64,000 nucleotides of DNA from Deltaproteobacteria bacterium. GTDB taxonomy: Bacteria; Myxococcota_A; UBA9160; PR03. This document shows, piece after piece, positions 47,547-63,373 of this stretch. Positions within the stretch are counted from its first letter, which is position 1. Every line of letters starts with the position of its first letter. The DNA lies in the NCBI GenBank assembly GCA_035063765.1, contig JAPSFT010000005.1, forward strand, positions 186,001 to 250,000, written 5' to 3'. Made by a program: the position numbers and the translations under genes. Under the pieces are notes generated by a model. It made no database searches and was not told where the DNA came from. It was given only the letters and a program-made list of their open reading frames with translations.

Positions 47547-47659
47547 GCGCGCAGCGGCCGGCCTGCGGGTCGCCGAGCCCGCTCGACGCGTGCGCAGCGC
47601 TCCGCCACCCTGTCGACACCTCGCCCGCGGTCCCGTGGGTGAAGCCGCGAATGGCCTGC

Positions 47660-48202
47660 ATGGACCTGCGCTCCGTCCTCCTTGCACTCCACGCCACCCT
47701 CGACGCCGAGGGGATCGCGCACGCCCTGATCGGCGGTCTCGCGCTGGCGGCACACGGCGCCGGGCGTGCGACCAACGGCCTCGATCTCGTCGTCGACGGC
47801 GATCACGCTGCCGACGTCGATCGTGTGCTGGCGGCGCATGGCTTCGAGCCGCTCCACCGGAGTGCCGACGTCGGGAACTACGTCTCGGCCGATCCCGCCC
47901 GCGGTCGCGTCGACGTCCTCTTCGCGCGCCGGCCGCAGGGGCGGGCCATCCTCGCCCGCGCGGCTCCGATCGAGGTGCTCGGCGCGACGCTGCGGGTCGC
48001 GGACGCCTCGGACCTGATCGGCCTGAAGGTGCAGGCCTACGCGAACGATCCGACGCGCGGGCGCCGGGACCTGGCCGACATCGAGCAGCTGCTGCGTCAC
48101 GCGAAGGTCGACGGGAACCGGGTGCGCGAGTACTTCTGGAGCTTCGATCGCGAGGGCGACCTCGACGCCCGGCTCGCGATGGTCGAGCGATGGAAGCGAT
48201 GA
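47660..48202 (+). CDS. Nucleotidyltransferase-fold protein with degenerate active site
   Basis: This protein of about 180 residues has the minimal nucleotidyltransferase fold: a helix, then ALIGGLALAAHG and RATNGLDLVVDGD. Most members have R-x-T-x-D-x-D at this point; here the first metal-binding Asp is Gly (TNGLD). The third acidic position (RVDVLFARRPQG) remains. Later helices resemble AbiEii/MNT-type proteins, including LIGLKVQAYANDPTRGRRDLADIEQLL. The start may be GTG 47639, ATG 47651 or ATG 47660; the last begins the domain. It overlaps the next small gene by ATGA, forming a pair that looks like a toxin-antitoxin or tRNA-modifying unit. The exact function is unknown. Confidence 0.78.
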   Translation: MDLRSVLLALHATLDAEGIAHALIGGLALAAHGAGRATNGLDLVVDGDHAADVDRVLAAHGFEPLHRSADVGNYVSADPARGRVDVLFARRPQGRAILARAAPIEVLGATLRVADASDLIGLKVQAYANDPTRGRRDLADIEQLLRHAKVDGNRVREYFWSFDREGDLDARLAMVERWKR

Positions 48203-48405
48203 GGCGTCCCGCTCCGGACGGCGCCATCCTGCCGGCGAGCGCGCGCGAGGGCTTCGAGGCCTCGCGGCGGGCCGTCCGCGCCTGGGAGCGCGCGCACCCG
48301 CTCGGGATCGAGGAGATCCTCGACTGGATCGACCAGCTCCGCTCGCTCTTCGGGGATCCGCCGGTGGACCGCCGGCCCTGGCACGGCGACGACTTCCGGA
48401 TCTAG
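48199..48405 (+). CDS. Small protein paired with the nucleotidyltransferase
   Basis: The ATG at 48199 overlaps the upstream stop by 4 bases (ATGA). The 68-residue product has a helical body (ASAREGFEASRRAVRAWERA, IEEILDWIDQLRSLFG) and ends PPVDRRPWHGDDFRI. The Trp-rich, charged end looks conserved rather than random, but I do not recognise the family. Tight coupling suggests it binds or controls the larger protein. An ATG at 48190 adds three residues. Confidence 0.7.
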   Translation: MRRPAPDGAILPASAREGFEASRRAVRAWERAHPLGIEEILDWIDQLRSLFGDPPVDRRPWHGDDFRI

Positions 48406-48408
48406 TGC

Positions 48409-48481
48409 CCCGTCCCGGAAGACCGGCGCCGCACCGGCGGCCCGACGCCAGGGCCGGACGTCGGCGGCTTCCGGGGACGGG
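48409..48481. terminator. Large nested hairpin between converging genes
   Basis: CCCGTCCCGGAAG (48409-48421) pairs with CTTCCGGGGACGGG (48468-48481), with one bulged base, around an inner GC-rich region that can also fold. It fills the gap between the small gene (stop 48405) and aqpZ (stop 48490), so it may end transcription from both sides. There is no T-run. Confidence 0.55.
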
Positions 48482-48489
48482 AGAGCCGC

Positions 48490-49203
48490 TCAGGGCCGGC
48501 CCGTCACCGGCGGCTCGTGCTCGCCGATCACCGCGCGCGACACCACGCCCGCCAGCGCGGCGCCCACGATCGGCGCCACCCAGAACAGCCAGAGCTGCCC
48601 GAGCGCCCAGCCTCCGACGAAGAGCGCCGGGCCCGTGCTGCGCGCCGGGTTCACCGAGGTGTTGGTGATCGGGATCGAGATCAGGTGGATCAGCGTGAGG
48701 CCGAAACCGATCGCGATCGGGGCGAAGCCGGCCGGCGCCCGCCCGTGCGTCGAGCCGAGGATGATCAGCAGGAAGAAGAAGGTGAGCACGAGCTCGGCGA
48801 CGAAGGCCGAGAGCAGCGGGTAGCCGCCCGGCGAGTGCTCGCCGTAGCCATTGGAGGCGAAGCCGGCGGCGAGGTCGAAGCCCTCCTTGCCGCTCGCGAT
48901 CAGGTAGAGGACCGCCGACGCCGCGATCGCACCGAGCACCTGGGCGACCACGTAGCCGGGCAGCTCGGAGCCGGGGAAGCGCCCGCCGGCCGCGAGCCCC
49001 ACCGACACGGCCGGGTTCAGGTGACAGCCCGACACGTGGCCGATCGCGTAGGCCATCGTCAGGACCGTGAGGCCGAAGGCGAGCGCCACGCCGAGGAAGC
49101 CGATCCCGAGCTCGGGGAACGCCGCCGACACCACGGCGCTGCCGCAGCCTCCGAAGACCAGCCAGAAGGTGCCCAGGAACTCCGCCGCGATCTTGTTGCC
49201 CAT
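48490..49203 (-). CDS. aqpZ: Aquaporin Z-like water channel
   Basis: This 237-residue membrane protein has six helices and both pore motifs, [13 protein letters not shown] and [16 protein letters not shown], which match the aquaporin Z type. The selectivity-filter Arg (NPAR) is present, fitting water rather than glycerol. The start is ATG 49203, with GAGGAGG ahead. A 5-base dyad CTACA-6 bases-TGTAG (49219-49234) overlaps that ribosome site and might affect translation, but it is short. The protein is encoded alone. Confidence 0.94.
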
Positions 49204-49335
49204 GACCCCGGTCCTCCTCTACAACATCGTGTAGGGCCGATTCTGCCAGCCCTCGCGTGGGATGGGAAGCTGGAAGGCAGTCCGCCCGTCCATCGCGAGG
49301 GCATCTCCCCTCGCGCTTGCAGAGCCCTCGAGGCG

Positions 49336-50205
49336 TCAGCCCGCCAGGAGCCGCAGCCAGGGCCAGCGCGTCACCAGCAGTACGAACCCGAAGACCGCGA
49401 GGTAGGCGAGGCGCAGGCGCCGCCACGCGGGATCGCTCTGCGCGACGCCCATCGAGAGCAGGAGCCAGCCGAAGCCTGCGACCGGCGCGAGCACGTAGGT
49501 GCCGGCGCAGAACAGGAGCAGCAGCGCATGGCGCAGCGGCACGAGGAGCGCCGGCCGCGGCAGCAGGAACACGGCGGCGAGCGCGCCCTCGAGCACGAGG
49601 GTCGCCCCGGTGAGCACGGCGGCGAGCGCCCGGAAGGGCTCCGTCTCCTCGGGCATCACCGCCCAGGGCACGAACACGCCGTCGCCGTGCTCGCGCACCA
49701 GCTCGCGCAGGCTCCAGAAGGTCTCGTCGTCGAGGCCGCCCGCGAGCCGCGTGAACGCCTCCATCCGATCGTCGTCGAGCAGCGTCACCCGGAAGAAGCG
49801 GCCGTCGAGGAAGTCGGGGGACAGGGCGACCTTCCAGAGCGTCGCGAAGGCGAAGGTGAGGCCGATCAGCCAGCGGCCGTTCCAGGCCAGCGCGCGGCCG
49901 CGATCGGAGGAGCCCGTCGCGAGCGCCGCCGCCAGGCACCAGTAGGCGAGCAGGTAGGCGTGGTTGTCCGACATCGGCCAGTCCAGGACGACGCGCAGCC
50001 CCGCCAGCGCGGCCAGCGCGAGCCACAGGCCGGTGCTGCGCAGGGCGCCCGGCGCCAGGAGCCCGAGCGCCGCCAGGCCCACGAGCAGCGGGCGCAGCCA
50101 GCGGTCGCCGACCGGTGCCAGGAGCAGCGCCACCAGCAGGAGCCGCAGCGCCAGGTCGCTGCGGTCCATCCCGAGCAGATCGCGCGCGGCGCCTGTGAGC
50201 GACAC
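49336..50205 (-). CDS. Multi-pass membrane protein (HTTM-like)
   Basis: This 289-residue protein has about eight membrane helices. The segment LIGLTFAFATLWKVALSPDF followed by LDGRFFRVTLLDDDR, and the later VLEGALAAVFLL and LLLLFCAGTYVLAPVAG, resemble membrane proteins of the HTTM (vitamin K-dependent carboxylase-like) group. I would not assign an enzyme activity. The start is GTG 50205, three bases after the stop of the 140-residue partner. The pair ends the envelope cluster that runs from 55677 to 49336. Confidence 0.7.
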   Translation of the reverse strand: MSLTGAARDLLGMDRSDLALRLLLVALLLAPVGDRWLRPLLVGLAALGLLAPGALRSTGLWLALAALAGLRVVLDWPMSDNHAYLLAYWCLAAALATGSSDRGRALAWNGRWLIGLTFAFATLWKVALSPDFLDGRFFRVTLLDDDRMEAFTRLAGGLDDETFWSLRELVREHGDGVFVPWAVMPEETEPFRALAAVLTGATLVLEGALAAVFLLPRPALLVPLRHALLLLFCAGTYVLAPVAGFGWLLLSMGVAQSDPAWRRLRLAYLAVFGFVLLVTRWPWLRLLAG

Positions 50206-50208
50206 GCC

Positions 50209-50631
50209 TCAGCGCTCCTCGAGCGGGACCGAGAGCGAGGCCAGGAGCTCGCTCGAGGGTCCGAGGGTCTCCGGGTCGTACCGGGTCGCGAAGACCTGGA
50301 TCTCGATCGCCTCGGGCGGTCCCGCCTCGGGCTCGGCGCCGGCCTCGTAGGCCGCGAGCGCGAGCGCGAGCGCCCGCAGGCGCCGCTCGTCGGGCAGGGC
50401 CAGCGCGTGCCGCTCCGCGGTGCGCAGCTCCTCGGGCACGTCGAGCGCGCGGCGTGCCCCCTCCCACAACGCCCAGGCGTGCAGGTGGCGGCGCCCCCAG
50501 GCGTCGGTGGTCGAGAACATCCCGAAGCCGCCGCCCGACCAGGCGTCGAGCTGCGCCGTGCGCGCGAGCCAGATCTGGTGCAGCGCCACCACGACGAGCA
50601 GCGCCGCCGGCAGGCGGACGAGCCAGCTCAC
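50209..50631 (-). CDS. Small membrane-anchored protein, partner of the HTTM-like protein
   Basis: The start is GTG 50631, which opens a single membrane helix (VSWLVRLPAALLVVVALHQIWL). The rest (about 110 residues, with WSGGGFGMFSTTDAWGRRHLHAW and a C-terminal beta segment IEIQVFATRYDPE) faces one side of the membrane. The G-x-F-G-M-F-S motif is the most striking part. A longer frame upstream (to 50775) reads into the MITE and is not part of the original gene. It sits 3 bases from the HTTM-like gene, so the two probably work together. Confidence 0.68.
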   Translation of the reverse strand: MSWLVRLPAALLVVVALHQIWLARTAQLDAWSGGGFGMFSTTDAWGRRHLHAWALWEGARRALDVPEELRTAERHALALPDERRLRALALALAAYEAGAEPEAGPPEAIEIQVFATRYDPETLGPSSELLASLSVPLEER

Positions 50632-50675
50632 GATGCCGGCGATCCTTTCGAGCGTCGGCTGCGGGCGGCGCTCAG

Positions 50676-50832
50676 AGCCTGTGAAGGAATCGGCGACCGA
50701 GCAGCGCGCCGTCGCCGGTAGGCCAGATGCAAGGCGCGACGACGAGTCATGTCGAGATATGGCGAGGAGGGGCAACGCAGCAGATGGCCTGCCGCCGCAA
50801 GCGATGCGACCGAGCCGATTGCTTCACAGGCT
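50676..50832. mobile_element. MITE-like element with terminal inverted repeats and CTCAG target duplication
   Basis: This 157-base element has 19-base terminal inverted repeats (AGCCTGTGAAGGAATCGGC at left; the right end reads the same on the other strand with one mismatch) and is bordered by the 5-base direct repeat CTCAG (50671-50675 and 50833-50837). Inner parts are also imperfectly palindromic (for example CGGTAGGCCAGATGC and its mirror). There is no transposase frame, so it is non-autonomous. The stop codon of the gene at 50834 lies in the right CTCAG copy, so the insertion happened exactly at that stop. Confidence 0.9.
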
Positions 50833-50833
50833 C

Positions 50834-51787
50834 TCAGTACCCGGGTGGCGGGCTCACCGCCAGGTAGCGCAGGTCCCCTCCGGAGTAGGCCTTGATGTAC
50901 CACGTCCCGCCGCAGCGGAAGTACTCGGTGTCGTCGACGTAGACCTGGTAGAGCTCACAGGCCGGCTGCGAGCTCATGTCGGTGAATGCCGCCACCGTGA
51001 GCGCGGTGCCGATCGTGATCGCGCTCCACGCGGCCACGTTGCCCCACTCGATGTCGTCGTCGTCCCAGACGTCGACCTCGTTCCAGTCCACCTCGTTCCA
51101 GTCCACCTCGCTCCAGTTGCCCTCGTCCAGGCGGTCGTCCCAGAAGTCCTGGCGGTCCTCCTGCATGTCGCTCCGGTGGCTCTGCCAGTCCTCGCGATTC
51201 TGGTTCCGCCAGTCCTCGCGGTCCCCCTGCCGGTCGCTCATGGCCTGGTCGCGGTTCGCCTGGCGATCGCTCACGGCCTGGCCGCGGTTCGCCTGGCGGT
51301 CCGCCGCGCTCTGCTGGCGGTTGGCCTGGCTCTCGCCGCGCTGGGCGCCGCGGTCGGGTCGCTGCGTGGCGCCGCCGCCCTGCCCGGGCCGCAGCCCCGC
51401 CTGCTGGCCGCCGCCCTGGCCCGGGCGCGGTCGTCCCTGCTGTCCAGCGCCCTGCCCCGGGCGGGGCCGCTGCTGGCCACCTCCCCCGAGCCGGGCCGAC
51501 GACGCCGGCCGGGACTGTGCCCGCCGCACCGAGCCGAGGCCTCCCGAGGCCGGCCCCTGCCGCGAGATCTGCTGCCGGCTCGGGGCGCCACGGGAGCGAC
51601 CGCCGCCGCCGCCACCAGCGCGCGGCGCCGACATCTGCGCGCGGCCACCGCCCCCACGGCCGCCGCCGCCGCCACGGCCCCCGCCGCCGCGGCCTCCGCC
51701 GCGCGCCATCACCTCGCCCGCGCCGAACAGCAGCGCGAGCGCCACGGCGCCGATCTGGATCAGGATCCGTCGCTCGAGGAAGCTCAC
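50834..51787 (-). CDS. Low-complexity secreted protein with Gly/Arg and D-W-N-E-V repeats
   Basis: This 317-residue protein has a membrane-directing start (IQIGAVALALLFGAGEVMA), a Gly/Arg-rich part (RGGGRGGGG), a Pro-Gly-Gln region (GQGGGQQ repeats), repeats of SDRQANRDQA, then an acidic Trp-rich part (WNEVDWNEVD, DVWDDDDIEWG) and a final domain with AAWSAITIGTALTVAAF and paired Cys (PACELYQVYVDDTEYFRCGG). The last part looks folded and may sit in a membrane. I do not recognise it. It starts with GTG 51787, overlapping the DUF2092 gene (GTGA), so it belongs to the same operon; opposite-strand frames here are artefacts of composition. Confidence 0.65.
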   Translation of the reverse strand: MSFLERRILIQIGAVALALLFGAGEVMARGGGRGGGGRGGGGGRGGGGRAQMSAPRAGGGGGGRSRGAPSRQQISRQGPASGGLGSVRRAQSRPASSARLGGGGQQRPRPGQGAGQQGRPRPGQGGGQQAGLRPGQGGGATQRPDRGAQRGESQANRQQSAADRQANRGQAVSDRQANRDQAMSDRQGDREDWRNQNREDWQSHRSDMQEDRQDFWDDRLDEGNWSEVDWNEVDWNEVDVWDDDDIEWGNVAAWSAITIGTALTVAAFTDMSSQPACELYQVYVDDTEYFRCGGTWYIKAYSGGDLRYLAVSPPPGY

Positions 51788-52647
51788 TGTCCGCCCTCCT
51801 GCGCCGCACTGGCCGCCGCGCCTCGCTCCGGCAGCACGAACGGGACGCGCGTCGCTCCCCGGGGAGCCTCGAAGGCGAAGAGCCGGTCGGGCGTTCGCGG
51901 GGAGAGGTTCCAGTCGGTGAACGAGGCCCGGAACTGCGGGCGGCCGCGCGCGAGCTCGAAGTTGATGACGATCCGCTCGGGGACGGCCGGATCGCCCTGG
52001 CGGATCCAGAGCTGGATGCCGACGCCTTCGCGGGTGCGCAGCGCCACGTGGTCGCAGGGACGGTCCTCGACCGTCTGCACGTCGACGTGGCGGGCGGCGA
52101 TCACGTTGTCGACGAGCACCTGGGCCAGGTCCTCGCCGAACAGGTCTGCGAGCGGCAGGCGCAGGCCGACGTCGTCACGCAGGAAGTCGGTGAGCTGGTC
52201 GAGCGTACCGCTGCGCTCGGCGCTCGCGTAGACGTTCGGGCCGTCGTCGTAGACCGTGACCGCCCGGCCGTCGTAGAAGGCCTGCAGGTGCCGGCCGGTG
52301 CGGTCCCAGCGCTCGACGCGCATGCGGTCGGGACGGCGGATCGTCTGCTCCGAGCGCGAGCCGAACTCGATCGCCTCGCCGTCGGCCTGGATCACGTCGT
52401 AGGACTGCTCGACGGTGAACGAGAGCTGCTTCGCGCCCGTGAGCGTGGCCACCATCCGCTGGACCGGCTCGACCGCCTCCGGGTCGATGAGCGGCTCCTC
52501 CGGCTCGGCCGCCGCCGCCTCCGGCGCGGGTGCCGGCGCAGGCGCCGGCTCCTGGCCGCGCGCCCCCGGCGCGCCGGCCAGGAGGGCGGCCAGCATCAGC
52601 CCGCCCGCTGCCGCGACTCCGATCTCCGATCGCCATCGTGTCGACAA
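51784..52647 (-). CDS. Secreted DUF2092 domain-containing protein
   Basis: This 287-residue protein has a signal peptide (GVAAAGGLMLAALLAGAPGARG) and a Pro/Ala spacer (EPAPAPAPAPE), then a DUF2092 domain, a LolA-like beta-barrel half: VQRMVATLTGAKQLSFTVEQSYD, GSRSEQTIRRPDRMRVE, FYDGRAVTVYD, RHVDVQTVEDRPCDHVALRT and PERIVINFELARGRPQF. It resembles lipoprotein carriers. The TTG at 52647 is chosen because GGAGG lies 6 bases upstream; an ATG at 52710 adds 21 residues. It is in the cluster with two membrane proteins and the low-complexity protein. Confidence 0.82.
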   Translation of the reverse strand: MSTRWRSEIGVAAAGGLMLAALLAGAPGARGQEPAPAPAPAPEAAAAEPEEPLIDPEAVEPVQRMVATLTGAKQLSFTVEQSYDVIQADGEAIEFGSRSEQTIRRPDRMRVERWDRTGRHLQAFYDGRAVTVYDDGPNVYASAERSGTLDQLTDFLRDDVGLRLPLADLFGEDLAQVLVDNVIAARHVDVQTVEDRPCDHVALRTREGVGIQLWIRQGDPAVPERIVINFELARGRPQFRASFTDWNLSPRTPDRLFAFEAPRGATRVPFVLPERGAAASAAQEGGQ

Positions 52648-52706
52648 CGCTCGTCCTCCGCTGCGAAGCGTTACGGGACGGCGGGCCGCCGTCCAGTGGG
52701 ACCTGC

Positions 52707-53903
52707 TCATGCCATCGCCTTCAGGACCTCGCGCAGGAGGTCCTGGATCGGGATCCGGATCGCCACGACCGCCAGCATCGGGAGGGCGGCCGGGAGCGCG
52801 ATCGCCAGGAGGGCACCCCGGTCGAGGGGGACCGGGCGCATCGCCCGGACGGCGCCGTGGAGCGCCAGCGTGTCGGCCACCGGCCCGAGCTCGGGGGCGC
52901 CGAGCAGCGCATCGTCCGCCAGCGGCCGGCCTTCGATCCAGCGCTGATGCACGAGCCTGCCGTGGCGGCCGACGAGCGCGCCGTAGTCGAGCAGGGCCGC
53001 CCGCCGCGCAGCCGCGAGCCGAGGCGCGAAGGCGAGGAGCGGCGCCAGCACCAGCACGAGCATCAGGACCACGAACCCGATCATCGGCAGCCGCAGCGCG
53101 TCCAGCGCGAGGCCGTGGTAGACGACCTCGTGCGCCCAGCGTGCCGCCACCACCGACGCCACGCCGAGCACGACCAGCGCAAAGCTGCGTGGCAGGGTGC
53201 CGAGGAAGCCAAGTCCGCCGGCACGGTCGGGATGGGTGGGTACGATCGCGAGCGGGAGGCGCGCGACACGCGTGAGGGCGATCGCGAGCAGGAAGAGGCG
53301 CCAGAGCCAGGCGAGTGCCAGCAGCAGGTAGAGCGGCCGGACCACGTACGCGAACCAGAAGCCACCGAAGCCGAGCCGGTGCGAGCCCGCCTCCTCGGCC
53401 CAGACCAGCTCGTGCACGCCGGCGTGGGTAGGCGCCGCCAGCGTCCACGCCGCCACCAGCACCGCGAGGACGAGCCAGGGCTGCGCGCGATCGCGCAGGC
53501 GCGCGACGCCGTGCAGGGTCTCGGCGAAGCGGCCGTGGTCGGGCTCGGGGACGAGGCCGGAGTGGAGGAAGTACGGGAAGATCCGGCGCGTCGTCGTGTG
53601 TGCCATGGCCTCCGCGAGCACGAAGAGGGGGATCGCGACCAGGCAGCGTACCGACACGCCGAAGTGCTGGAGGAGGGGCTCGCCGGCGCCACCGGCGGCG
53701 CGTCCCGTCCAGGTTGCCCAGGCGGCGATCGGCAGCCAGGTGAGCGCGGCCAGAACGAGCGCGCGCCGGCCGACGCCGAGGCCGGCGCGCGGGATCAGTC
53801 CGATCGCCCGCTGGAGGCGGAAGCCCAGGTCGCCGCTCACGAGCGAGAGCGCGAGCGCGTCGGAGTCGTCGGACGCGGGCGTGGGGTCCGTGCGACGGGC
53901 CAT
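52707..53903 (-). CDS. Polytopic membrane protein of unknown function
   Basis: This 398-residue protein has about six to eight membrane helices: LVLAALTWLPIAAWATW, CLVAIPLFVLAEAMAH, PWLVLAVLVAAWTLA, GFWFAYVVRPLYLLLALAWL and PMIGFVVLMLVLVLAPLLAFA. Charged loops hold TTRRIFPYFLHSG and HPDRAGGLGFLGT. The late segment RRAALLDYGALVGRHGRLV is soluble. I do not recognise the family with certainty. The ATG at 53903 is two bases after the preceding stop. It is between a lipoprotein gene and DUF2092. Confidence 0.7.
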   Translation of the reverse strand: MARRTDPTPASDDSDALALSLVSGDLGFRLQRAIGLIPRAGLGVGRRALVLAALTWLPIAAWATWTGRAAGGAGEPLLQHFGVSVRCLVAIPLFVLAEAMAHTTTRRIFPYFLHSGLVPEPDHGRFAETLHGVARLRDRAQPWLVLAVLVAAWTLAAPTHAGVHELVWAEEAGSHRLGFGGFWFAYVVRPLYLLLALAWLWRLFLLAIALTRVARLPLAIVPTHPDRAGGLGFLGTLPRSFALVVLGVASVVAARWAHEVVYHGLALDALRLPMIGFVVLMLVLVLAPLLAFAPRLAAARRAALLDYGALVGRHGRLVHQRWIEGRPLADDALLGAPELGPVADTLALHGAVRAMRPVPLDRGALLAIALPAALPMLAVVAIRIPIQDLLREVLKAMA

Positions 53904-53905
53904 GG

Positions 53906-54886
53906 TCAACCTCCTGGTCCCGGAGCGGACCCGCCCACGCGCACGCGGGCGCCCGCCCACACGGCGTGCTCGTCGATGCGCAGCTCGCCCGTCTGGACGT
54001 CGAGCGCGAGCGGGCGGCCCCGGACGTCCACCGACTCCCGGAGGCCCGCAGGGAAGCGGAAGGGCTCGATCTTGTGCAGCGGAAGCTTCACGCCGAAGCC
54101 CTTCTCCTGCGCCTGCTCGGCCAGGATCTCCTTCACGTCCACCCGCTCGAGCACCCAGCCGCACAGGCCCTGCTTGCTCGCGAGCAGGGCGTCCACGCGC
54201 CGCCAGGTCTCGGCGGAGGGGATCACGCGCAGCCTCACCTTGGTCTCGGGGAAGCGCGGTGTGCCGACGACCTCGCCGCCCTGGGCCTCGAGGGCGAGCG
54301 TGCCCGAGAGCACGTAGCGGTCCGGCTCCACGCTGCCCGAGACCGGCTCGGTCACGTCGAGATCGCCGCACACCGGCTTCGCGAGGCGCCCGCCTCGCCA
54401 GCGCAGGTGCACGGTGGCGTCGCCCGCGCCCTCGACGACCTCCACCGGCAGGGTGAGCGTGATCTCGTTGCCGCCGAAGCGCACCTCGGGGCGGCCGGGC
54501 GCGAGCCGGCCGTGCACCTCGTCGACCAGCAGGTCGATCTCGAGCGTGCCGACCTCGACGAAGCCCTTGCGCAGGATCTTCTCCTTGTGCGCCCGGATCC
54601 CACTCAGGGTGAGGCTCACGCGGCTCGCAACGTCGCTGAAGACGCGCTCGATCAGCTCGCGCAGGAAGGTCGTGGGGACCCCGATCACGACGTCGCCCTC
54701 CGGGACCCCGGCCCGACGCGGATCGGCGTCGACCAGGGCGCGGAAGCGCTGCTCGAGGGCCGCCCCCTCGGCTTCGAGGCGCGTGAGCTCGGCCGCCCAG
54801 GCCTCGCGCTCGGCGGCCGAGGGCGTACGCGAGCAGGCGCCCGCCGCGAGCAGCGCGCAGGCGAGCGCGGCAGCGGCCCGCCTCAC
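53906..54886 (-). CDS. Putative lipoprotein of unknown function
   Basis: This 326-residue protein begins with a lipobox (ACALLAAGACSRTP, Cys near residue 19), then a coiled coil (residues 25-60), and a beta-rich body with GDVVIGVPTTFLRELIERVFSD, EITLTLPVEVVEGAGDATVH and VKLPLHKIEPFRFPAGLRESV. The last part, LDVQTGELRIDEHAVWAGARVRV, resembles lipid-binding or AsmA-like beta structures, but only loosely. It overlaps the next lipoprotein gene by GTGA, and the two have a similar overall plan (coiled coil then beta body), so they may be paralogues that work together. Confidence 0.68.
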   Translation of the reverse strand: MRRAAAALACALLAAGACSRTPSAAEREAWAAELTRLEAEGAALEQRFRALVDADPRRAGVPEGDVVIGVPTTFLRELIERVFSDVASRVSLTLSGIRAHKEKILRKGFVEVGTLEIDLLVDEVHGRLAPGRPEVRFGGNEITLTLPVEVVEGAGDATVHLRWRGGRLAKPVCGDLDVTEPVSGSVEPDRYVLSGTLALEAQGGEVVGTPRFPETKVRLRVIPSAETWRRVDALLASKQGLCGWVLERVDVKEILAEQAQEKGFGVKLPLHKIEPFRFPAGLRESVDVRGRPLALDVQTGELRIDEHAVWAGARVRVGGSAPGPGG

Positions 54887-55677
54887 GGGGCGGTCTCCGG
54901 GGCCGGCTCCGGCCGGCGGTGGAGCTCGACGCCGAGCCCCTGCTCGCCGCCCTTCACGGGGCCTACGCCCGCAGCGAACACCACCCAGAGCTTGCCTCCG
55001 ACCGCCAGCACGCGCTCCACCGAGATCTCGAGCGGCACCTCGAGCGCCGCGAAGCGCACGCCGCCCTCCTCGACCGCCGGAACCGGCACCGCGCGCTCCA
55101 GGGTCACCGGGACCTCGATCGGCGGGATCGCCTCCTCGAGCAGCTCGCGCCCCTTGCCGCCGAGGTACGAGATCACGCCGCGGCCCAGCACCCTCTCGAG
55201 GCCGCCCGCCTCGGCGATGTCGATGTGGTCGATCGCGACGCGCACGCGCAGGATCCCCGTCGCGGGATCGATCGCCGCCTCGCCGAGGCCGCCTTCGATG
55301 CGCAACGCCACCTGGCGCGCCGGGAAGCGCACGGGGTGGATGCGGCCCTCGATGCGCACGGCGCCGTACTTGTCGTCGAGCTCGATCGCGGCGCTCTCGA
55401 GGCGCACCACGAAGCGGTCCTCGAGCGGCTGCTCGAGCGGGAGCTGGGAGCGGAAGAGATCCTGGACGAGCGTCTCGCCGACACCGACGAAGAAGCGGTC
55501 GGTCGGGATCAGCGAGCCCTGCTCGGCGTCGGCCACCAGCTCGCGCAGGCCCCGCGCGCGACGCTCGAGCTCCGCCCGGCGCGCCTGGTAGCGGACCTCC
55601 TCCTCCGAGGGGCCGCAGGCCAGCAGCAACGCGGCGGTCGCGGCGAGCCAGCACGGGCGTCGAGCACGAGCCCTCAG
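54883..55677 (-). CDS. Second putative lipoprotein, possible paralogue of its neighbour
   Basis: This protein of about 264 residues has the lipobox LLLACGPS, a charged coiled coil (EEEVRYQARRAELERRARGLREL), then a beta-rich body with RFFVGVGETLVQDLFRSQLPLE and RFVVRLESAAIELDD, like the 'GVPTTFLRELIERV' part of its neighbour. The start is uncertain. A CTG at 55677 follows GGGAGGG at 6 bases and gives a normal lipoprotein start, while the nearest ATG (55797) adds 40 Arg-rich residues. It leads the envelope cluster running down to 49336. Confidence 0.65.
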   Translation of the reverse strand: MRARARRPCWLAATAALLLACGPSEEEVRYQARRAELERRARGLRELVADAEQGSLIPTDRFFVGVGETLVQDLFRSQLPLEQPLEDRFVVRLESAAIELDDKYGAVRIEGRIHPVRFPARQVALRIEGGLGEAAIDPATGILRVRVAIDHIDIAEAGGLERVLGRGVISYLGGKGRELLEEAIPPIEVPVTLERAVPVPAVEEGGVRFAALEVPLEISVERVLAVGGKLWVVFAAGVGPVKGGEQGLGVELHRRPEPAPETAP

Positions 55678-55899
55678 GCGCGACCCTCCCGATCCTTCTC
55701 GCTTTCTAGCACGAACCCGCCCGCGCCCGGGGAGCGCCCGCCGTCGACGCCTCGGAGAGGCTGCGCATGGCCCTGCCTCCAGCCGGGCCGGCCGCATCCC
55801 AAGGCGGGGGGGCCCGGCGGGCGGGAGCCTGCCGAAGCCGGGGCCACCGGATCCTGATCGAGTTCTGAGGGAGCCCGCTCGCGGCGGGGGAGGCCGGGC

Positions 55900-58615: not shown

Positions 58616-60022
58616 CTACGACTGGATGACGAGCTTCGAGAGGCTGGTCTTGCGCAGGTTGGTCTTCTGGATCGTGCGCACCAGCTCGGCCACCTTCTCG
58701 GTGTCGGTCTCGAAGGGGTTGTTGCAGATCACCCGCACGTTGAGCAGGTTGCCGAGGCGGATGTTCGACCAGTCGAGGTCGTACTGGATCGCGTTCTGCC
58801 GGGCCAGCTTGATGAACTCGCCGCGCATCTTGGCGCGCGTGTCCGGCGGCGGCTCGGTCTTGGCCTTGATCACCTCGTCGTCGCTCAGGATCCGCTCGAC
58901 GGCGCCCTTGCGCTCGAGCAGGTAGTAGAGGCCCCTGCCGATCCGGATGTCGTGGTACTGGAGGTCGAGCATGAACACGCGCGGGTCGTTCCAGCTCGTG
59001 CCCTTGCTCGCCAGATACGACTCGATCATCTGGCGCTTGATCACCCAGTCCACCTCGCGCCCGAGCTTGTCGGGGTCGCTGTCGAGGCAGTCGAGCACGT
59101 GCTGCCACTTGTGGACCGCGTCCTGGAGCTCGTCCGACACCGGATACTGCTCGAGATAGCGCCAAGCCATCTCGCAGTACTCGCGCTGGATCTCGATCGG
59201 CGAGTACTCGCGGCCGTTGTCGAGGCGCAGCTTGCGCTTGCAGGTGGTGTCGTAGGAGATGTCCTTGATCGCCTTGACAGGATTGCGGAGCGTGAAGTCC
59301 TTGTTGATGAAGTTGTCCTCGATCATCTGCAGGACCACGGCGCAGGCGCCGATCTTCACGAAGTTCGTGTACTCGCTCATGTTCGAGTCGCCCACGATCA
59401 CGTGCAGGCGCCGGTACCTCTCGCGGTCGGCGTGGGGCTCGTCACGGGTGTTGATGATCGAGCGGTCGTTGGTCGTGGTGCCCGAGATCTTCTGGTAGAT
59501 GTGCTGGGCGCGCTGGCTGATGCAGTAGTGCACGCCGTCCTGGGTCTGGAAGACCTTGCCCGCGCCGGTGTAGATCTGGCGCGTCACGAGGAACGGGATC
59601 AGCTGTTCGGCCAGGTAGTAGAAGTCCACGTCGCGGTCCACGAGGTAGTTCTCGTGGCAGCCGTAGCTGTTCCCGACGAAATCGGTGTTGTTCTTGAAGA
59701 TCGAGAGCTTCCCGGCGATCCGCTCCTCGCGGATCTTCTCCTCCGCGTAGTCCTCGAGCTCCTCGAGGATCCGCTCGCCGGCCTTGTCGTAGACGATCAG
59801 CTGGCGCGGCGAGGCGCACTCGGGGGTCGCGTACTCGGGATGGCAGCCGGTGTCCTGGTAGAAGCGGGCGCCGTTCTCGAGGAAGACGTTCAGGAAGTGC
59901 TCGGTCGTGATCAGCTTCTCGAACAGGAAGCGGATCGCCTTCTCGACCGGCAGGGTCTTCCGCCCCTCGGGCGTGAAGATGATCCCGTACTCGGTCTCGA
60001 CGCCGTAGATCCGCTTCTGCAC
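58616..60022 (-). CDS. pafA: Pup-protein ligase PafA
   Basis: PafA uses ATP to join the C-terminal Glu of Pup to lysines of target proteins. This 468-residue protein has the glutamine synthetase-like fold: RIYGVETEYGIIF, NGARFYQDTGCHPEYATPE (metal and catalytic Asp), SIFKNNTDFVGNSYGCHENYL, RSIINTRDEPHAD, RLHVIVGDSNMSEY, and HDIRIGRGLYYLLERKG. It is distinct from Dop, as it lacks the Dop-specific loop after ITVKN. It is the last gene of the cluster and lies 22 bases after prcA. Confidence 0.97.
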   Translation of the reverse strand: MQKRIYGVETEYGIIFTPEGRKTLPVEKAIRFLFEKLITTEHFLNVFLENGARFYQDTGCHPEYATPECASPRQLIVYDKAGERILEELEDYAEEKIREERIAGKLSIFKNNTDFVGNSYGCHENYLVDRDVDFYYLAEQLIPFLVTRQIYTGAGKVFQTQDGVHYCISQRAQHIYQKISGTTTNDRSIINTRDEPHADRERYRRLHVIVGDSNMSEYTNFVKIGACAVVLQMIEDNFINKDFTLRNPVKAIKDISYDTTCKRKLRLDNGREYSPIEIQREYCEMAWRYLEQYPVSDELQDAVHKWQHVLDCLDSDPDKLGREVDWVIKRQMIESYLASKGTSWNDPRVFMLDLQYHDIRIGRGLYYLLERKGAVERILSDDEVIKAKTEPPPDTRAKMRGEFIKLARQNAIQYDLDWSNIRLGNLLNVRVICNNPFETDTEKVAELVRTIQKTNLRKTSLSKLVIQS

Positions 60023-61888: not shown

Positions 61889-63373
61889 TCAGCTCTTCAG
61901 ATTCTTCACGAGCTCGGCGGCGCTCGGCGACGACCGGAACAGGTCGTCCACGTGGCGCTTCGAGCCCTTCAGCGGCTCGGCCATCAACACGCGCTTGATC
62001 GGCTCGTCGCCGATGCCGAACGAGATCGAGTCCCAGTTCACGCCGAACACCTCGGCGCCGTAGCGGCGCAGGCAGCTCCCGCGGAAGTACGCCCGGGTGT
62101 CCTCCGGAGGGTGGTGCACGGCCCGCTCGATCTCCTCGTCCGTCACCACCCGCTGGATCTTGCCCTGGCGCTCGAGAAGATAGTACAGGCCCTTGTCGGG
62201 TCGCAGGTCGTGGTACTGGAGGTCCAGCATGTGGACCTGCGGCGAGCTCCAGTCGGCGCCCTTGCGGGCCATGAAGCCTTCGACCAGTGCCTTCTTCGCC
62301 ACCCAGTCGAGCTGGTCCGCCAGCTCCATCGGATCGCGGGCGAGCGCGGCCAGCACCCGCTCCCAGTACGCGAGCACCTCCTTTGCGCCGGGGTCGGTCT
62401 CGCGGCCGACCACGTAGCGCTGCGCCATCTCCAGGTACTCCCCCTGGAGCTGCACGGCGTTCATGCGGCGGCCGCTCTGGAGCTCGATCTCGCGCCGGCA
62501 CGTGACGTCGTGGGAGACCTCCTTGATGGCCTTCACCGGGTCGCGCAGCGAGAGGTCGCGGTCGACGGCGCCGTCCTCGATCATCGCGAGGACCAGCGCG
62601 GTGGCGCCGTTGCGCAGGTAGATCGAGGGCTCGGCCATGTTGGCGTCGCCCACGATCACGTGCAGGCGCCGGTACTTCTCCCGGTCCGCGTGGGGCTCGT
62701 CGCGCGTGTTGATGATCGGGCGCTTCACCATCGTGTCGAGCGCCACCTCGGTCTCGAAGAAGTCCGCGCGCTGCGAGAGCTGGTAGTCGCAGGGGTGGGC
62801 ACGGTTCTCGGAGCCGACCTTGCCCGCGCCGCTGTAGACCTGGCGCGAGACGAAGAACGGCATCAGGTGCTCGACGATCTGCTTGAAGGACGTGCGGCGG
62901 TCCATCAAGTAGTTCTCGTGCGAGCCGTAGCTGTTGCCCTTGCGGTCGCTGTTGTTCTTGTAGATCAGCATCTGGGTGCCCGGCGGCAGCACCCGGTTGG
63001 CCTCGCGGCGCGACTGCTCGACGATCCGCTCGCCTGCCTTCTCGAAGATCACGAGATCGCGGGCGTTGGTCACCTCGGGGCACGAGTATTCGGGGTGGGC
63101 GTGGTCGACGTAGTAGCGCGCCCCGTTCGCCAGCGTCTTGTTGCGGGCGATGTTCTCCTGCTGGTTCGGGGTGTACTTCTCGCCCTCGACCTGGAAGCCG
63201 CGGGCGTCGGCCAGCGGGTTCTCCTGGTCGTAGTCCCAGAGGATCTTCGCCGTCGAATCCTCTCGATACGAGTTCACGAGGAGCACGCAACTCGAGATGG
63301 GGTCGAAATCACGGTCGTTCTTGACGGTGATGCCGTACTCGATCTCGGTCCCCATCACCTTGGGAATCGCCAT
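61889..63373 (-). CDS. dop: Deamidase/depupylase Dop
   Basis: Dop converts the C-terminal Gln of Pup to Glu and can also remove Pup from targets. This 494-residue relative of PafA has KVMGTEIEYGITVKNDRDF followed by a Dop-typical insert, ARYYVDHAHPEYSCPEV with the catalytic Asp, IYKNNSDRKGNSYGSHENYLM, RPIINTRDEPHAD, LHVIVGDANMAE and LDLQYHDLRPDKGLYYLLERQG. The order arc-dop-pup-prcB-prcA-pafA is the classic one. The ATG at 63373 fits the family. Confidence 0.97.
   Translation of the reverse strand: MAIPKVMGTEIEYGITVKNDRDFDPISSCVLLVNSYREDSTAKILWDYDQENPLADARGFQVEGEKYTPNQQENIARNKTLANGARYYVDHAHPEYSCPEVTNARDLVIFEKAGERIVEQSRREANRVLPPGTQMLIYKNNSDRKGNSYGSHENYLMDRRTSFKQIVEHLMPFFVSRQVYSGAGKVGSENRAHPCDYQLSQRADFFETEVALDTMVKRPIINTRDEPHADREKYRRLHVIVGDANMAEPSIYLRNGATALVLAMIEDGAVDRDLSLRDPVKAIKEVSHDVTCRREIELQSGRRMNAVQLQGEYLEMAQRYVVGRETDPGAKEVLAYWERVLAALARDPMELADQLDWVAKKALVEGFMARKGADWSSPQVHMLDLQYHDLRPDKGLYYLLERQGKIQRVVTDEEIERAVHHPPEDTRAYFRGSCLRRYGAEVFGVNWDSISFGIGDEPIKRVLMAEPLKGSKRHVDDLFRSSPSAAELVKNLKS

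Follow-up and report, generated by a model that had tools for sequence, protein, structure and literature searches.

A recurring four-gene unit beside mreB with a candidate two-piece relative of the vitamin K-dependent carboxylase

The deltaproteobacterial DNA analyzed here, a 64,000-nt stretch to which we refer as the window, is part of contig C5 of a 4.4-Mb genome and carries, beside mreB, seven open reading frames (ORFs) on one strand and a miniature inverted-repeat transposable element (MITE) among them (Table 1). The ORFs encode two lipoprotein-like proteins (LP1 and LP2), a polytopic protein (TM), a DUF2092 protein, a secreted Gly/Arg-rich protein (GRW), a small protein (HTS), and a polytopic membrane protein (HTTM). 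A preliminary description of this DNA, made from the sequence and its ORFs, took all seven for a single lipid- or envelope-handling system, and the ORFs, their shared minus strand, and their tight packing proved to be as it had reported. Consecutive genes overlap by 4 nt (LP1/LP2, TM/DUF2092, and DUF2092/GRW) or are separated by 2 nt (LP2/TM) or 3 nt (HTS/HTTM), and the sole wide junction is that between GRW and HTS, the site of the MITE. The MITE was likewise borne out, both by its 24-nt inverted ends and by four other near-complete copies in the same genome (176-182 nt, 91-93%), besides many shorter fragments; the GRW stop codon falls within its right end. Translation of LP1 probably starts at a CTG preceded by GGAGG, the only upstream in-frame ATG, GTG, or TTG being an ATG at 55797. 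A scan for sigma-70-like promoters gave 0 sites vs. 0.1 expected, numbers too low to bear on separate promoters. The DUF2092 identity given in the preliminary description was confirmed by Pfam (PF09865; E = 5.1e-56, 189.8 bits, cut-off 21.2), and the six other ORFs matched no Pfam or NCBIfam model with a meaningful score.

Table 1. Positions of the seven genes and associated features in the window.
Feature	Position	Strand	Description
LP1	55677-54883	-	lipoprotein-like, probably CTG start
LP2	54886-53906	-	lipoprotein-like, paired with LP1
TM	53903-52707	-	398-aa polytopic protein without family model
DUF2092	52710-51784	-	periplasmic, Pfam match
GRW	51787-50834	-	secreted Gly/Arg-rich protein
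MITE	50671-50837		between GRW and HTS; 24-nt inverted ends at 50671-50694 and 50814-50837
HTS	about 50631-50209	-	small protein: one predicted helix, then exported domain
HTTM	50205-49336	-	289-aa polytopic membrane protein
Variable spot	47547-55899 (8,353 bp)		SCP2-like gene to mreB; differing contents in relatives
Aquaporin Z	48490-49203	-	inside variable spot
Nucleotidyltransferase-like gene (presumed name)	47639-48202	+	inside variable spot

The cluster was compared with three sets of genomes (60 relatives, 79 genomes of the order, and 377 genomes of the phylum), the window genome being counted in. Searching with a seven-member HTTM profile gave matches in 21 of the phylum genomes, and after two short matches were dropped (G034 and G081; E = 5.4e-4 and 7.4e-4, respectively), 21 loci in 19 genomes were kept. 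At every one of these 21 loci HTS adjoins HTTM on the same strand. DUF2092 and GRW adjoin this pair at nine of them (the window, L040, L045, the divergent L046, L048, L049, L060, L169, and L172), or at ten if the G041 locus, which is split between contigs, is counted. When neighbor families were compared at 19 HTTM loci, frame shadows aside, one further family was common to five loci and the rest to fewer. On a tree of HTTM, from which G041 was left out, the label denoting presence of the unit needs 3 changes vs. a mean of 6.9 for shuffled labels, and one of 500 shuffles was as low. In six relatives in which one strand carries both GRW and HTS, the HTS domain starts 12-90 nt past the GRW stop codon vs. 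221 nt in the window; the MITE has split the DUF2092-GRW-HTS-HTTM unit in this genome.

The pairing of HTS with HTTM extends to more distant members. An HTS profile found matches in 30 of the 377 phylum genomes, and eleven of the weaker places for which a locus was available (L231-L241), all in genomes outside the HTTM list, were read. An HTTM-like gene stands beside HTS in ten of the eleven, L240 being the one without. In these ten divergent pairs (L231-L239 and L241) HTTM precedes HTS in eight and follows it in two (L232 and L233). Seeming fusions of HTTM and HTS at the divergent matches were rejected, their upstream parts being out-of-frame readings and the HTTM-like gene a separate, adjacent ORF. 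Neither HTTM nor a divergent HTTM-like protein was found in plasmids.

DUF2092 occurs in 21 of the 60 relatives. The GRW C-terminal domain (~46 aa) is encoded directly downstream of DUF2092, on the same strand, at 21 of 27 other DUF2092 loci, the six without it being L041, L052, L053, L056, L059 (at a contig edge), and L066. The domain is present in one copy in the window and in up to three in relatives (L045, L046, L047, L049, L060, L062, and L064 hold GRW-type proteins with tandem copies). The window's own genome encodes, on contig C30, a second DUF2092 protein and a two-domain GRW-type protein with no HTS-HTTM alongside. Eight DUF2092 loci on proteobacterial plasmids were also read. At the five from Alpha- and Gammaproteobacteria DUF2092 and the gene that follows it share 4 nt. 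The product of that following gene, translated for four of the five, is Gly-rich with a GRW-like end on the Azospirillum and Thiodictyon plasmids, has the GRW-like end only on the Neorhizobium plasmid, and is short and without such an end on the Rhizobium plasmid. At two of the three from Betaproteobacteria a protein with a GRW-like end is encoded 377-452 nt from DUF2092, and in the third another gene is found. Two of the proteobacterial GRW-type proteins weakly match DUF6515 (PF20125; E = 9.5e-5 and 2.8e-5, below the curated cut-off), while the GRW protein of the window had no match to this family in the Pfam scan. As for function, the DUF2092 family is LolA-like according to a prediction in PMC4520260, and its strong Pfam score places the window protein with that family. 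For the lipid- or envelope-handling role proposed earlier, this assignment is the sole link to lipids, while the HTS-HTTM pair points to an enzyme. Unlike DUF2092 as known so far, the protein described here is fixedly paired with GRW and often stands with HTS-HTTM.

The preliminary label 'HTTM-like' for the last gene was right, though the likeness is visible by profile-profile comparison only. Compared with nine Pfam-HTTM proteins of relatives, the HTTM profile scored 37.6 (best among 100 shuffles, 23.3), and 20 family members compared with 30 carboxylase-type proteins scored 42.4 (best among 100 shuffles, 28.9; reversed, 12.6), an unrelated polytopic family used as a control scoring 14.0. When the ten divergent members were added, the resulting 30-member set matched the carboxylase membrane domain with a score of 70.5 (E = 1.8e-9; best among 60 shuffles, 21.5), and the ten divergent members alone reached 85.7 over 220 columns. 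All 30 HTTM members share five invariant residues, N81, H82, K125, E206, and F245. N81-H82 and K125 correspond in the alignment to N103-H104 and K163 of the carboxylase-type protein L123, each of which is invariant in the 30 carboxylase-type proteins; L123 in turn aligns to the human vitamin K-dependent carboxylase GGCX (E = 5.1e-33), its N103, H104, and K163 corresponding, as counted by hand on the alignment, to GGCX N159, H160, and K218. In GGCX, according to PMC12589487, K218 serves as catalytic base, and the Glu is contacted by N159/H160. The ten divergent pairs keep the Asn-His and the Lys, linking the HTTM family to the carboxylases. By these profile comparisons HTTM is shown to be a distant homolog of the HTTM membrane domain of the vitamin K-dependent carboxylase (GGCX and its bacterial homologs; PF05090), with the Asn-His pair and the catalytic Lys kept. 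It differs from the carboxylase in that two proteins are involved, in scoring below the Pfam threshold, in a membrane part of ~285 aa, and in the lack of an exported domain on the HTTM chain. The window genome itself gave no match to a carboxylase-type protein. A literature search named no split bacterial carboxylase, which is no proof that none exists.

Since HTTM has no exported domain of its own, a candidate for the missing portion is HTS. HTS carries the motif W-x-GGGFGMF...R, and W34, G37, G38, M41, and R51 are kept in all 20 of 20 members. In outline its plan parallels that of the carboxylase past the membrane domain: a single helix is followed by a turn that is rich in Trp and Gly and ends in Met, and then by a small exported domain. 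Against carboxylase C-terminal parts HTS scored 19.2 (best among 200 shuffles, 17.7; the scores of two runs in this comparison may duplicate the preceding run), and with 30 sequences the score was 22.7 (best among 200 shuffles, 20.5). The gene order HTTM-HTS matches the domain order of the carboxylase in eight of the ten divergent pairs. A carboxylase-like HTTM protein, L127, has a separate small protein encoded before it (upstream of 1501) with the motif ERFSWRMFSS, which stands between the RFSWRM of the carboxylases and the GMFST of HTS. This partner ranks first of ~4,200 ORFs with the carboxylase C-terminal model (E = 0.029) and with two HTS models (E = 0.013 and 0.27); L127 itself has His-His where Asn-His is expected. 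The tests, taken with those reported below, are mixed, and whether HTS is the detached C-terminal part of the carboxylase seems to us evenly balanced.

Several results weigh against a carboxylase-like HTTM-HTS enzyme operating with DUF2092 and GRW. At 11 of the 21 HTTM loci no DUF2092-GRW pair stands beside HTS-HTTM, and GRW proteins with and without a neighboring HTTM showed no clear difference, a comparison on which the idea that GRW differs when HTTM is present was rejected. None of 20 HTTM family members matched the Pfam HTTM model (PF05090), for which seven divergent HTTM-like proteins reached at best 20.6 bits (cut-off, 27.7); none of seven HTTM members scanned matched the NCBIfam carboxylase or SdpB models, and a PDB profile search with HTTM gave nothing credible. 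The score of 42.4 against the carboxylase-type proteins drops to 37.7 without two long-branch rows. For HTS, a second test gave 20.8 with one of 150 shuffles higher, and the carboxylase C-terminal hidden Markov model does not pick HTS out. A joined HTTM and HTS profile scored 57.3 when realigned and 52.8 in a fixed alignment, a test that we do not count as support because 8 of 200 shuffles were equally high. Finally, three of the seven divergent HTTM-like proteins weakly matched MauE (best E = 0.00055), which suggests a wider quinone-linked membrane superfamily; the Lys alone may be common across it. HTS-HTTM could then be a DoxX/MauE-type membrane protein with a quinone-linked role in redox or assembly and no carboxylase-like chemistry, the Asn-His and Lys reflecting a common fold only. 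The MauE matches, the lack of Pfam matches, and the absence of a long exported domain on the HTTM chain would all fit such a protein. However, the match to carboxylase-type profiles lies far above the shuffles and spans 220 columns for the divergent members, and the Asn-His pair is invariant in all 30, so that we consider the DoxX/MauE explanation unlikely.

Another arrangement in which a small single-helix partner and an HTTM-type protein are encoded by adjacent genes is known from SdpA-SdpB of Bacillus (TIGR04033 being SdpB) and from YitP-YitO; PMC6818787 describes yitPOM as a paralog of sdpABC. By analogy, HTS and HTTM might mature an exported peptide precursor, namely GRW or a part thereof. 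HTTM proteins of the SdpB type do occur in the relatives, where four of nine Pfam-HTTM proteins match TIGR04033, and the window has the small partner first and HTTM second, which is the order of sdpAB as well. Moreover, an HTTM protein is found in a linaridin cluster, according to PMC9927463. However, the SdpA and SdpB models were matched by none of 20 HTS and none of seven HTTM proteins scanned, nor by seven divergent HTTM-like and three divergent HTS proteins. HTS and HTTM differ from SdpA-SdpB in lacking a match to the curated models, among which the library scanned presumably includes one for SdpA. Furthermore, five readable SdpB-type or other HTTM proteins of the relatives have GGD-like residues where the Asn-His pair is expected, unlike the HTTM family, and GRW is not known to yield a cleaved peptide. 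The neighbors of the pair, compared for recurrence only, showed no SdpC-like toxin gene. Overall, maturation of a peptide in the manner of SdpA-SdpB appears improbable, to about the same degree as a DoxX/MauE-type function.

The place occupied by the cluster differs among the four relatives in which it was compared, the congener G001 and three further members of the family (G002, G003, and G004). Gene names used in this comparison (mltG, SCP2, PafA/Dop, PPK2, SDR, acylphosphatase, sulfatase, and acyl-CoA dehydrogenase) are our own presumed assignments. In G001, of the same genus, the SCP2-like gene and mreB are convergent and 5 bp apart vs. 8,353 bp in the window, whereas in G002 the spot holds ~9 kb of different genes, a separate DUF2092-GRW pair among them. 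In G003 and G004, mreB and mltG are ~1.8 and ~1.7 kb apart, respectively, with other genes between them and no SCP2-like match. The spot beside mreB is thus variable, and the seven genes are probably accessory cargo there. At such a spot, the packing of genes on a single strand is a weak argument for a system. Also near mreB in the window are two PafA/Dop-like genes (58619-60022 and 61931-63142), with 94% and 46% identity to a G001 protein; both are likewise near mreB in G001 and G003.

TM and the lipoproteins proved to have other neighbors elsewhere. TM is found in 3 of the 60 relatives, window included, and adjoins genes for an SDR and an acylphosphatase in G004 and for a sulfatase and an alcohol dehydrogenase in G055. 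It is also present on 9 of 72,556 plasmids; of the five such loci read, three are annotated. On the Rhizobium plasmid TM is followed ~2.6 kb downstream by a DUF2092 gene, and on an Eleftheria plasmid the two are ~14 kb apart. On a Caballeronia plasmid (L079 1-8975) the TM homolog adjoins a gene annotated as paraquat-inducible protein A. TM does not belong to the recurring unit.

LP2 was found in 2 of the 60 relatives, in 2 of the 79 order genomes (E ≤ 0.001), and in 3 of the 377 phylum genomes, including one marginal match. The firm cases are the window genome and G025; a short match in G146 (E = 6.8e-4) and matches above 0.001 in 18 further genomes were dropped. In G025 LP1 and LP2 are paired, with 38% and 42% identity to the window pair, and are flanked by a PPK2-like gene and an acyl-CoA dehydrogenase gene. 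LP2 had no match in the plasmid or phage collections. The 'matching plans' seen in the two lipoproteins by the preliminary description received weak support, hhalign aligning 33 columns with a probability of 6% and a score of 26.1 (best among 200 column shuffles, 25.0). A PDB sequence-profile search with LP1 and LP2 gave nothing credible, and models predicted from two-sequence alignments were of low confidence (mean pLDDT of 36.7 for LP2 and 39.8 for LP1) and found no Foldseek match at E up to 0.001. A TULIP-like lipid-binding fold was considered as a guess only, and given such models we claim no fold.

These distributions bear on the idea that the seven genes together make up a single, hitherto undescribed system for handling lipids or the envelope. 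In its favor, the genes share a strand and their junctions, apart from the one with the MITE, range from -4 to +3 nt, the products are exported or membrane-bound, and TM is near DUF2092 on the Rhizobium and Eleftheria plasmids. Also, the SDR adjoining TM in G004 (L072 2498-3169) has 80% identity to the SDR next to mreB in G002; therefore, TM and DUF2092-GRW may once have shared this neighborhood, which counts against a clean split of the cluster. However, among the loci read, LP1-LP2 or TM adjoin the four-gene unit in the window only, their homologs in relatives have different neighbors, and the whole stretch is absent from that place in G001 of the same genus. No other locus read holds the seven genes together; LP1, LP2, and TM are scattered, and only DUF2092, GRW, HTS, and HTTM repeatedly co-occur. 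Of the earlier claim of one system, the part that stands is thus this four-gene unit, and a conserved seven-gene system is largely refuted, to the point that we regard it as highly improbable. Most likely, the cluster was put together from three pieces, each with its own history: LP1-LP2, TM, and the recurring DUF2092-GRW-HTS-HTTM.

We therefore favor, at roughly even chances, an explanation in which the unit is accessory cargo beside mreB and comprises a split, divergent, two-piece relative of the carboxylase, HTTM and HTS, together with DUF2092-GRW. HTTM and HTS would form one membrane enzyme. Its membrane active site would belong to HTTM, in which Asn81-His82 and Lys125 take the positions of N159-H160 and K218 in the human protein, and its final helix and exported portion would come from HTS. 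From the carboxylase, we infer by analogy that HTTM would bind a reduced quinone in the membrane, that Lys125 would act as the base, and that the Asn-His pair would position the substrate. An exported protein would be modified, for which GRW is the nearest candidate, and DUF2092 might be a periplasmic carrier or chaperone that carries or folds GRW. The specific proposal that HTS-HTTM is a two-subunit bacterial carboxylase of the vitamin K type, sharing an operon with GRW as its substrate and DUF2092 as a LolA-like carrier, is considerably more tentative, although we rate it slightly above either the DoxX/MauE-type or the SdpA-SdpB-type function.

Two points may be of wider use. Genes packed tightly on one strand of a variable spot can mimic a system, and it is by comparing relatives that a recurring unit is told apart from chance neighbors. 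To our knowledge, the targets modified by bacterial relatives of the vitamin K carboxylase are largely unknown. If the carboxylase-like explanation is true, present family models miss an entire subfamily, to which the divergent HTTM-HTS pairs found across the phylum belong. Such a subfamily, keeping the catalytic residues, made in two pieces, and often standing beside a secreted low-complexity protein, would offer an enzyme and a substrate that can be tested together and, for a membrane enzyme of medical importance, a model in two parts.

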